From Nitrososphaerota archaeon (lineage in GTDB: Archaea; Thermoproteota; Nitrososphaeria; Nitrososphaerales; Nitrosopumilaceae), in the NCBI GenBank assembly GCA_021325595.1, contig JAJPGX010000042.1:1-47482 (forward strand): a stretch of 47,482 bases of DNA, in the 5' to 3' direction. Below are positions 38,157-47,271 of this stretch, in pieces (within the stretch, counting starts at the first letter, position 1; each line of letters begins with the position of its first letter). The translations under genes were made by a program, and so were the position numbers. Below the pieces are notes generated by a model that did not search any database, had not been told where the DNA came from, and worked only from the letters and a program-made list of their open reading frames with translations.

Positions 38157-38252
38157 GGACCGGTAGTCTAGCGGTTAGGATGACGCTCTCACACAGCGTA
38201 AAGATTTGAAAAAATCTCGCTAAGGTCAGGGGTTCAAATCCCCTCCGGTCCA
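38157..38252 (+). tRNA. tRNA-Val (anticodon CAC) with non-canonical intron
   Basis: Acceptor stem G-G-A-C-C-G-G pairs with CCGGTCC (38245-38251), discriminator A at 38252. The D arm is GTCT/GGAT with G-U pairs. The anticodon arm is ACGCT (38183-38187), loop CTCACAC, AGCGT (38195-38199), with U33 and anticodon CAC at 38190-38192. The T arm is AGGGG-TTCAAAT-CCCCT. A 23-nt intron interrupts the variable loop (38201-38223). After removal the variable loop is the normal 5 nt AGGTC. CCA is not encoded. A short T tract follows at 38254-38258. Confidence 0.92.
38201..38223 (+). other. tRNA intron, bulge-helix-bulge type, after position 44
   Basis: The AGCG of the anticodon stem (38195-38198) pairs with CGCT inside the intron (38218-38221), leaving 3-nt bulges TAA and AAG on opposite sides, the standard motif cut by the archaeal splicing endonuclease. 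The intron itself folds as AGATTT-GAAA-AAATCT, a 6-bp stem with a GNRA-type tetraloop. Cutting within the bulges leaves a 5-nt variable loop, which supports this assignment over the usual 37/38 site. Confidence 0.8.
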
Positions 38253-43917: not shown

Positions 43918-45126
43918 TTAAATGACTAGTTTAAACTTGATATTTTTTTTCTTCAAGAAAGAAATTAGTTGCTTTGCATGTTCTTCATCTTGGGTTTCAA
44001 GGCTAAGTGTGACACCGGCAGTACCTGCTGGAATACTGGAACTTAATCTATCATGAATCACTTCAACAATGTTCACGCTTAATGATGATATCTGGTCTAC
44101 GACTTCTTTTAATGCTCCAGGTTTGTCTGTCAAAAGTACTGATATCTTTACCATCCTTCCCATTTCGGTCAGGCCCTTTGCCACTATCTGCCCTAGTAGG
44201 TACATATCCACATTACCACCAGATAAAATTGGAACTACTTTCTTTCCCTTGCCAGTTTTCTTTTCAAGCAAGTATGCAAGACTGACAGCACCGGCTGGTT
44301 CTACTACCATCTTTGCTCGCTCCATTAAAAGAAACATTGCTTTGACAATTTCAGAATCATCTACCAGAACAATGTCATCTATTAATTCATTTATTATTTT
44401 GAATGTAAACTCTCCTGGTTTTTTTACTGATATACCGTCCGCAATTGTTCTTTTTCCTTCTACAGAAAGTAATTTTCCTTCATCAAAGGATTTTTTCATG
44501 GCTGGAAATCCAGAAGATTGTACACCGATTATTTTGACATGTGGTTTTTTTGTTTTAATTGCCTTTAGTATACCTGCTGCCAGGCCTCCACCACCTATTG
44601 GAACTATGATCTCATCAACGTCTGGCAAGTCTTCTAGTATTTCAAGACCGATTACACCCTGTGCTGCAATCACCTTCTCATCATCAAAAGCGTGGATGAT
44701 TGTACCCCCTGTTTTTTTAGATAATTCTACTGCTTTTGACCATGATTCATCATAAATTGCCCCCTCAAGTATTACTTTGGCACCATATGATCTTGTTGCT
44801 GCAACTTTGGCAGGAGATGCAGAAACTGGCATCACTATAGTGCATGGGATTTTTTCAAGAGCTGATGCATATGCCACACCCTGTGCATGGTTCCCTGCAG
44901 AAGCTGCAATGACACCTTTTCGTTTTTCTTCTTTTGACAATGTAGTAATCTTTGCATATGCACCTCTAACTTTAAACGAACCAGTTTTTTGCAAACATTC
45001 TGATTTTAGAAATACTTTTGCGCCAGTCATTTGACTAAATGTAGACGAACCTTCCATGGGCGTACGCCTGATTACATTTTTTTGAATTTTTTGTGATTTT
45101 AAGATCTCATCAAGAGTTAGATTCAA
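43918..45126 (-). CDS. ilvA: threonine dehydratase (threonine ammonia-lyase) with ACT domain
   Basis: 402 residues. Fold II PLP enzyme: PLP Lys K52 in K-T-G-S-F-K-V-R-G-A, S-A-G-N-H-A-Q-G, G-G-G-G-L-A-A-G for phosphate binding and S-G-G-N-V-D. The last ~75 residues are one ACT domain (K-I-S-V-L-L-T-D-K-P-G-A-L), giving allosteric control. It deaminates threonine to 2-oxobutyrate, the entry to isoleucine. One ACT domain and this length fit the shorter archaeal/catabolic-like subgroup. Confidence 0.92.
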   Translation of the reverse strand: MNLTLDEILKSQKIQKNVIRRTPMEGSSTFSQMTGAKVFLKSECLQKTGSFKVRGAYAKITTLSKEEKRKGVIAASAGNHAQGVAYASALEKIPCTIVMPVSASPAKVAATRSYGAKVILEGAIYDESWSKAVELSKKTGGTIIHAFDDEKVIAAQGVIGLEILEDLPDVDEIIVPIGGGGLAAGILKAIKTKKPHVKIIGVQSSGFPAMKKSFDEGKLLSVEGKRTIADGISVKKPGEFTFKIINELIDDIVLVDDSEIVKAMFLLMERAKMVVEPAGAVSLAYLLEKKTGKGKKVVPILSGGNVDMYLLGQIVAKGLTEMGRMVKISVLLTDKPGALKEVVDQISSLSVNIVEVIHDRLSSSIPAGTAGVTLSLETQDEEHAKQLISFLKKKNIKFKLVI

Positions 45127-45276
45127 TTAAAATTACCAGTTCTGTTACAGTATATTTGGTTTGTTACTCTAAATCAGGTTAGGTACGCGTGTTATTTTGA
45201 TATTTGTAGTAATAATTGTAGAAAAAAATGATGAATAATTACATTTTTTCAAAGATTTTCAAGGATCAGGAAAGCC

Positions 45277-45283
45277 TAAATAT
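45277..45283 (+). promoter_or_regulatory. TATA-like box before the 45307 RNA candidate
   Basis: TAAATAT in CCTAAATATC is centred about 27 nt before the first paired base of the structure at 45307, the distance expected of an archaeal promoter. Confidence 0.4.
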
Positions 45284-45306
45284 CTTTAAACGAAGATTTA
45301 GATCAA

Positions 45307-45373
45307 AGTCAAGGGGCCAAGAGGTGTCAACTCCCCAACTTTCAGACACCATAAAGTTCCATGCCCCTTGACT
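45307..45373 (+). ncRNA. candidate structured small RNA with possible pseudoknot
   Basis: An outer 11-nt arm (45307-45317, AGTCAAGGGGC) pairs perfectly with 45363-45373. Inside, GGTGTC (45323-45328) pairs with GACACC (45345-45350), and AACTTT (45337-45342) pairs with AAAGTT (45353-45358). The two inner helices interleave, so they would form an H-type pseudoknot or switch between alternatives. A TATA-like box lies about 26 nt upstream, and T runs occur at 45412-45426. It occupies the 289-nt gap between threonine dehydratase and the coiled-coil gene. No known family recognised. Confidence 0.5.
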
Positions 45374-45415
45374 AGAATATTACATAATAAAAAATACTGT
45401 CATATAAACAATTTT

Positions 45416-46252
45416 TTAATTTTTTAGAAATTTTATGATATCATCTAAGTGTTGAAGTAAATTTATTTTTGCTCTCTCAGGAATTTTTATCAGATTGATG
45501 TCACCTTGTCTAGTATTACCTTTATTGTATTCTAAATTAAAGTTACAAATACACCCCTCTTCTGCTGCAATCATTCTTGTTTCATCTATGAGCACGGGTG
45601 TTGTATGATATACTTCGATCAACATATTGTCTAATTCTTTAAAAAGACTTGATCTTTTCTCTGTTAACTGAGCTAGTTCTTTATGATTAGATTGAATTAA
45701 TTCTAAAAGTTCTTTTACGAGTATATCATTTTGAAAGAATATCTCAAACAATTTTTGGTGATCGACATTTTCATAGCCTTTCTGACGTAGTTTTTCTTCA
45801 ATTATTTTGTCATTTTCAGGATTGGTTCTAGTTTCAAGTAATTGTATTCTATCTGTAATGTCTGATAATTCTTTTTGTATTTCTATTACACGGTGATCTA
45901 ACTTGTAAAATAGCAATGCATGATATTGCAAAGACAAGTGTCCGGATAATAGATAATTGTCCTCTTTTACTTCAAATTTTATAAAAATACGACGTAGATC
46001 CTCATCCGATGTAGAAGAAACACCATCATTTTTCCAGCTAGTAAGATTTTTTAAAAAAGTGCCAAGAAAATCGCGTATTTTTGCAGGATCAAATGATTCT
46101 TGGTCTGTGACTGTGCCATCACCTAACATCACTTTAAGCGGTGCTTTTTTTGTCAGCTCTGTCACATGATTCAAGAATAGAGTACGAATTTGCTCTGCTT
46201 TATTACTCATAGACTTTATAAATACATCCTGATTTACAGAAGGAATTTGCAC
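45416..46252 (-). CDS. coiled-coil hypothetical protein (278 aa)
   Basis: A long helical protein: heptad-like stretches at about 120-150 (L-D-H-R-V-I-E-I-Q-K-E-L) and 175-215, and a C-terminal Cys pair in E-E-G-C-I-C-N-F. The Met at 46210 (M-S-N-K-A-E-Q) is an alternative start. No membrane helix or signal. Function unknown. Divergent from the zinc-ribbon/cyclase genes. Confidence 0.7.
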   Translation of the reverse strand: MQIPSVNQDVFIKSMSNKAEQIRTLFLNHVTELTKKAPLKVMLGDGTVTDQESFDPAKIRDFLGTFLKNLTSWKNDGVSSTSDEDLRRIFIKFEVKEDNYLLSGHLSLQYHALLFYKLDHRVIEIQKELSDITDRIQLLETRTNPENDKIIEEKLRQKGYENVDHQKLFEIFFQNDILVKELLELIQSNHKELAQLTEKRSSLFKELDNMLIEVYHTTPVLIDETRMIAAEEGCICNFNLEYNKGNTRQGDINLIKIPERAKINLLQHLDDIIKFLKN

Positions 46253-46473: not shown

Positions 46474-47271
46474 ATGAGTGAAGAACCCAACAAAGATCAG
46501 CCACCAGAATCAGTATCTACAAAAAGCATTGTAGATATGATGCTTGGCGGAGGAAGAACCGGCATACTGGATACAGAGAGTCTCATCAAAGAAACTCAAA
46601 AGAGAGTATGGAGTTCACTTAAGAAAGGATATGAATACGACTACTCGGTAGATGAATCAGACAAGTTTCTCCGTGATCATGTATCGCAGAAAATGCACAT
46701 GATTGTAATGTTTGTAGATCTTGTTGGTTCTACAGATATGGCTCTGCGTTTACCACCTGAGAAGCTTGGCATCATAGTAAGCTCGTTTTCCCAAGAAATG
46801 CGTTTTGTGATTAAACATCATGGAGGATATGTTTTGAAATATGTTGGTGATGCTGTAATAGGATATTTTGTAGCAGAAGAAAGTCCACTGGTTATTGCAG
46901 ATAGTGCTGTTAATTGTGCCAAGGCGATGATCGACGTAATAGAAAGAGGGATCAATCCAATTTTGAGCGAATATGATTATCCTGAACTCAGGGTTAAGAT
47001 CGGAATGGATTATGGTGAGAATGCCATTGTAAGATATGGATCAGACAAAGTTAGATCCCATGTAGATATTCTAGGACCGGCAGTGAGCATAGCTGCAAAA
47101 ATAACAGCTCTTGCAAGACCAAATCAAATTCTAGTTGGAGAAGATGTTTTTGAAAAATTACATCCTAGTTTAAAAGATCTTTTCAAGAAAGTAGAATGGC
47201 ACGGCAACCAATGGAATTATCATGACAAGGAAACTGGGAAACTTTACCAAGTTTATGCCATGCATGCTTAG
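46474..47271 (+). CDS. class III nucleotidyl cyclase-like protein
   Basis: 265 residues. An N-terminal ~70-residue lead, then the cyclase homology domain: metal Asp D82 in F-V-D-L-V-G-S-T, D126 in Y-V-G-D-A, K122 and D198 (purine-side positions typical of adenylate cyclase). The Asn and Arg that normally stabilise the transition state, 7 and 11 residues after D198, are Ser205 and Lys209. The domain may therefore be a weak, altered or non-catalytic cyclase. No membrane helix or obvious sensor domain. It follows a zinc-ribbon gene by 6 nt; the stop overlaps a convergent small gene in TTAG. Confidence 0.82.
   Translation: MSEEPNKDQPPESVSTKSIVDMMLGGGRTGILDTESLIKETQKRVWSSLKKGYEYDYSVDESDKFLRDHVSQKMHMIVMFVDLVGSTDMALRLPPEKLGIIVSSFSQEMRFVIKHHGGYVLKYVGDAVIGYFVAEESPLVIADSAVNCAKAMIDVIERGINPILSEYDYPELRVKIGMDYGENAIVRYGSDKVRSHVDILGPAVSIAAKITALARPNQILVGEDVFEKLHPSLKDLFKKVEWHGNQWNYHDKETGKLYQVYAMHA

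Follow-up and report, generated by a model that had tools for sequence, protein, structure and literature searches.

Small RNAs of Gram-positive bacteria that carry a UCCC motif, such as LhrC, RsaE and FsrA, provide a precedent for UCCC seeds (PMC4132741). The element described here lies in a 47,482-nt stretch of DNA (the window) from a Nitrosotalea-clade archaeon. Like LhrC, RsaE and FsrA (PMC4132741), it appears to be a small multicopy RNA with an exposed C-rich motif and sibling copies at separate loci. Unlike them, it is archaeal and has a different fold, and the likeness, drawn here from sequence alone, does not imply homology. Among archaeal RNAs, sRNA162 of Methanosarcina mazei (PMC3510493) and sRNA132 of Haloferax volcanii (PMC6560208) are likewise stand-alone intergenic RNA genes of the 50-500 nt size class. 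In the main text of a review of archaeal sRNAs (PMC5867862), neither 'Thaumarchaeota' nor 'Nitroso' occurs. A keyword search of open-access papers found no description of this RNA, and no conserved regulatory RNA of ammonia-oxidising archaea was found in Rfam or the open-access papers searched. In Rfam 15, neither the element nor 15 related loci had a match at the gathering threshold, and the best sub-threshold score was that of STnc40 (17.4 bits vs a cut-off of 45). Archaeal H/ACA guide RNAs resemble the element in being hairpins about 70 nt long that contain an internal loop. However, the element has no K-turn or K-loop by eye and no H/ACA match in Rfam, and its conserved part is the apical loop, whereas H/ACA RNAs have variable guides.

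We conclude that the plus strand of the locus very probably encodes a stand-alone small non-coding RNA of a family outside Rfam, because the promoter spacing is conserved, the helices covary, the loci are fixed and the motif CUCCCC is nearly invariant. The original prediction was a small RNA with three helices, two of which cross each other as a pseudoknot or a switch. Conservation, covariation and synteny bear out the small RNA, its promoter and the helices P1 and P2, but not the pseudoknot or switch.

Promoter, helices and exposed motif

The features of the locus are as follows.

43918-45126, minus strand: threonine ammonia-lyase (threonine dehydratase) gene; divergent neighbour and syntenic anchor, outside the RNA
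45269-45283, plus strand: BRE/TATA promoter element, GGAAAGCC-TAAATAT
45300-45306, plus strand: predicted 5' end and leader AGATCAA; start placed about 24 nt after the TATA box
45307-45317, plus strand: outer stem P1, 5' strand, AGTCAAGGGGC; 11 bp with the 3' strand
45323-45328, plus strand: inner stem P2, 5' strand, GGTGTC
45329-45337, plus strand: apical loop AACUCCCCA; exposed and conserved, putative seed or binding site
45337-45342, plus strand: P3 (proposed crossing helix), 5' strand, AACTTT; conservation unsupported
45345-45350, plus strand: inner stem P2, 3' strand, GACACC
45353-45358, plus strand: P3 (proposed crossing helix), 3' strand, AAAGTT; conservation unsupported
45355-45363, plus strand: AGUUCCAUG, an unpaired stretch of the 3' joining segment and the second conserved motif; kept in classes A1, B and C
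45363-45373, plus strand: outer stem P1, 3' strand, GCCCCTTGACT; pairs with 45307-45317
45402-45425, plus strand: ATATAAAC (45402-45409) and T-tracts (45412-45417, 45420-45425); candidate 3' end or terminator
45416-46252, minus strand: 278-aa ORF; convergent syntenic anchor, overlapping the predicted RNA tail at its 3' end

The 11-bp outer stem and the two 6-bp helices are all present where they had been predicted, and P3 crosses P2 in the window sequence. The plus strand of 45300-45380 folds at -27.6 kcal/mol vs -13.8 in dinucleotide shuffles (z -5.2), and none of 200 shuffles was as stable. This indicates that P1 and P2 together are more than chance. The predicted energy of P1 with P2 is -26.2 kcal/mol vs -19.0 for P1 with P3; thus the two crossing helices are unequal partners.

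A TATA-like box at the proper distance had also been predicted. TAAATAT is present at 45277-45283, and its spacing to P1 is kept in the homologues: both Nitrosotalea and other genera have the TATA box 32-33 nt upstream of P1. The promoter is kept as RGGCTAAATA or TTAAATA in every paralogue class. As is looked for in a stand-alone archaeal intergenic sRNA, the element thus has its own promoter, with TATA at a conserved distance, and covarying helices, P1 and P2. The RNA would span about 45300 to 45373, with a possible tail to about 45425, and would be transcribed from this archaeal promoter. P1 would enclose the inner hairpin P2, in a fold that would keep (A/U)ACUCCCC unpaired. ACUCCCC is invariant in alignment A1. 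The GATC of the leader is also invariant in A1 and is kept in the Nitrosotalea clade. The AGUUCCAUG stretch is degenerate in Nitrosotalea sensu stricto, and the related GCCUCAGUUU is found in some other genera. Behind P1, ATATAA(A)C occurs at 27-31 nt in classes A, B and C and also in several other genera. It was observed that the minus strand of ATATAAAC is a TATA box, GTTTATAT, which faces the element from roughly as far away as the plus-strand promoter; the small RNA might therefore have an antisense partner.

Homologues, paralogues and diverged orthologues

Homologues were sought by DNA search, by a covariance model and by a gapped pattern. The DNA search found relatives in many genomes of the same genus, as well as a second copy at G000:C18 of the same genome. 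By the covariance model, 34 of the genus's 37 genomes have the element, among them all 19 high-quality ones, and the gapped pattern found it in all five genomes of the sister genus g25. In its exact form this pattern was absent from all other genera of the family. One model match, G012:C28 (L103), does not resemble the family by eye and appears to be spurious. Exact pattern matches in contigs labelled Porphyromonadaceae, Lachnospiraceae, Comamonadaceae and Jeotgalibacillus (L041, L055, L058, L063) misfit the element pattern and are probably chance.

The homologues form three paralogue classes whose loci are fixed, and the window genome has one copy of each. Class A, the copy in the window, lies between the divergent threonine dehydratase gene and the convergent 278-aa ORF, at 175-179 nt from threonine dehydratase in 22 Nitrosotalea-clade loci. 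Class B lies between the genes of VirB4-like and type II/IV secretion ATPases, and class C lies behind 3-dehydroquinate synthase II. All classes have the loop ACUC(UC)CCC in addition to the GATC leader, P1, P2 and the TATA box. Upstream of threonine dehydratase, G030 (L258) has a class A copy of decayed appearance and G029 (L257) has none, and both genomes retain class C. Paralogues may replace one another.

In the alignment of the Nitrosotalea clade, P1 covaries and is paired in 98.3% of cells. P2 is paired in 85.1% of cells, with two pairs changed on both sides, and was present in all 49 homologues when the helices were fitted sequence by sequence. Over P1 and P2, cells changed on both sides number 18 vs 5.8 in shuffles. 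The covariation check proposed with the original prediction therefore speaks for P2 in addition to the outer stem. Read as the plus strand, P1 has 23 G.U pairs vs 2 A.C pairs, a count that is indicative, as the sequences are related and not independent. Other genera repeat the signal, with about 25 G.U cells in P1. This excess of G.U over A.C indicates that the plus strand is the RNA.

Among 300 genomes of the order, sequence and model searches found nothing outside g1 and g25. Diverged orthologues were uncovered via synteny, by reading the gap upstream of threonine dehydratase genus by genus. Hairpins with CUCCCC or a close variant were found at the same place in g22, g23, g26, g29, g30, g36, g38 and g40, and sixty further stretches added g27 and g65. 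The gap lacks the element in g24 and g66, in most of g23 and in part of g29. Non-coding RNA families of this lineage can escape sequence search and surface only through synteny. CUCCCC is nearly invariant across at least 10 genera. The sequence of P1 in the other genera has changed, yet 95.3% of its cells pair. Five of its pairs are changed on both sides, and 18 cells are changed on both sides vs 5.6 in shuffles, a number reached in none of 500 shuffles. In per-species controls, the lengths and energies of P1 in these genera were rare in shuffles. A model built from 16 diverged orthologues was run on 400 genomes of the order and found the RNA in 73, which all belong to the same family and have about one copy each. 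All 51 model matches with a listed position of threonine dehydratase lie 122-152 nt upstream of that gene, on the divergent strand.

The inner fold differs between genera. When all diverged orthologues were aligned with MAFFT (A2), no consensus fold emerged, since the 3' arms of different genera were misaligned; a narrower set (A3) was used instead. In single-sequence predictions, made one by one, CUCCCC is followed by a stable 3' hairpin in g22, g23, g27 and g29 (mean z -3 to -4). In Nitrosotalea no 3' hairpin is favoured (mean z -0.24), and P2 encloses CUCCCC instead. The motif is unpaired in the predicted folds of both types, in an apical loop or in a single-stranded stretch. We tentatively propose, at somewhat less than even odds, a family-wide regulatory RNA whose inner fold was rewired in evolution, with CUCCCC ahead of a 3' hairpin in most genera and inside an enclosing loop in Nitrosotalea, and with this nearly invariant motif acting on a partner common to the family. 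If true, ammonia-oxidising archaea would thereby have their first known conserved sRNA regulon, according to the sources searched. These archaea are abundant nitrifiers of oceans and soils, and an RNA at a fixed locus over many genera, with defined stems and one nearly invariant motif, would be a precise handle on RNA-based regulation.

Possible partners of the CUCCCC motif and alternative explanations

The same six letters, CUCCCC, are always exposed, which suggests that the RNA is a regulator that binds a partner through them. It would work in trans, and the three paralogues would be a family of sibling regulators, because the neighbours of the three loci are unrelated and no same-strand gene lies downstream. 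The pair of threonine dehydratase and the 278-aa ORF stays together even in genera without the RNA, which also argues for action in trans. CUCCCC would pair with G-rich sites (GGGGAG) of target RNAs, as UCCC-motif sRNAs do with the G-rich ribosome-binding regions of their targets; like the C-rich motif of such antisense sRNAs, it is unpaired in the predicted folds. By this analogy, an antisense mechanism through CUCCCC is the likeliest mode, and we give it about an even chance.

Searches for targets gave no candidate within their scope. In the places examined, unrelated coding sequences held most of the matches to the extended complement TNGGGGAGTTGA (a 12-nt pattern) that lie beyond the element itself, and no conserved complementary target site was found with this pattern. 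In the window, GGGGAG occurs 6 times against an expected 5.4 and so shows no enrichment. With 16S rRNA, complementarity was no longer than 8-9 nt, a length to be expected by chance, and was seen in single genomes without being shared. Matches of 6-mers occur in the 16S rRNA loci and none is extended or shared, a weak test, as two of the four loci (L292, L294) may have been read on the wrong strand.

The main rival to antisense pairing is a protein-binding RNA, a scaffold or sponge, in which CUCCCC is the site of a conserved RNA-binding protein. The motif is nearly invariant over genera while the surrounding stems vary freely, it is single-stranded in two different inner folds, and no conserved RNA target was found in the places examined, all of which favour a protein. 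However, nothing points to any particular protein, and C-rich loops are also a classic sRNA seed. We regard protein binding as possible but the less probable of the two.

Alternatively, the element could be read on the minus strand as a cis-acting leader, attenuator or terminator that controls the downstream threonine dehydratase gene. Synteny with this gene is tight, and on the far side of the element a TATA-like box points towards it. However, G.U usage marks the plus strand as the RNA, class C behind 3-dehydroquinate synthase has no such gene on its minus strand, and the gene pair occurs without the element in some genera. Furthermore, threonine dehydratase has a proximal TATA-like box of its own, about 25 nt before its start and conserved in many genera. 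A cis-acting leader is thus improbable, and it was rejected on G.U usage and paralogue context.

A further alternative is the two-state switch or pseudoknot of the original prediction, in which P2 and P3 would compete or coexist and the binding of a ligand or target would select one of them. P3 in the window would recreate the arrangement of the other genera, CUCCCC and then a hairpin, and three species have P3-type helices of 6-7 bp. Shuffling the 3' joining segment yields a 6-bp P3 about 1% of the time, but P3 was chosen among many possible pairings. P3 is not conserved in the clade. It is paired in 36.8% of cells, the level of slid controls of the whole structure (29-45%), and complementarity of the loop to the 3' segment is at chance over the 49 homologues (mean z 0.00), reaching at least 6 bp in only three. 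In addition, P1 with P3 is weaker than P1 with P2 by 7 kcal/mol, and the lone 3' hairpin favoured in several other genera is not favoured in Nitrosotalea. An H-type pseudoknot, which needs two conserved crossing helices, was rejected on the same numbers. An alternative 4-bp pairing, AACU with AGUU, is too invariant on both sides for covariation to speak. The crossing helix did not hold up as a pseudoknot or switch, which we consider very unlikely; because P3 is not conserved, the better reading is that it is a coincidence of one species and plays no general part.

A simple mobile or repetitive inverted repeat (MITE, insertion-sequence end or REP-like), which the original prediction had named as its refutation, is hardly credible: the near-palindromic outer stem does occur at three loci of the window genome, but such repeats need many copies at variable sites, whereas genomes carry one to three copies each, which lie at fixed syntenic loci, promoter and loops are conserved, and viral contigs had no exact pattern matches.

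Neighbouring genes

The genes around the proposed small RNA gene are also conserved. The threonine ammonia-lyase matches TIGR01127 with 497 bits vs a cut-off of 379. In most of the genera examined in this family, threonine dehydratase is adjoined by the 278-aa ORF, which had no match in Pfam or NCBIfam. A predicted protein with a class III adenylate/guanylate cyclase domain (PF00211) is encoded at 46474-47271, and it is in the same neighbourhood across genera. Elsewhere in the window, 38157-38252 has an Rfam tRNA match (96 nt, 58 bits) that was not called by ARAGORN, and is probably an intron-containing tRNA gene.
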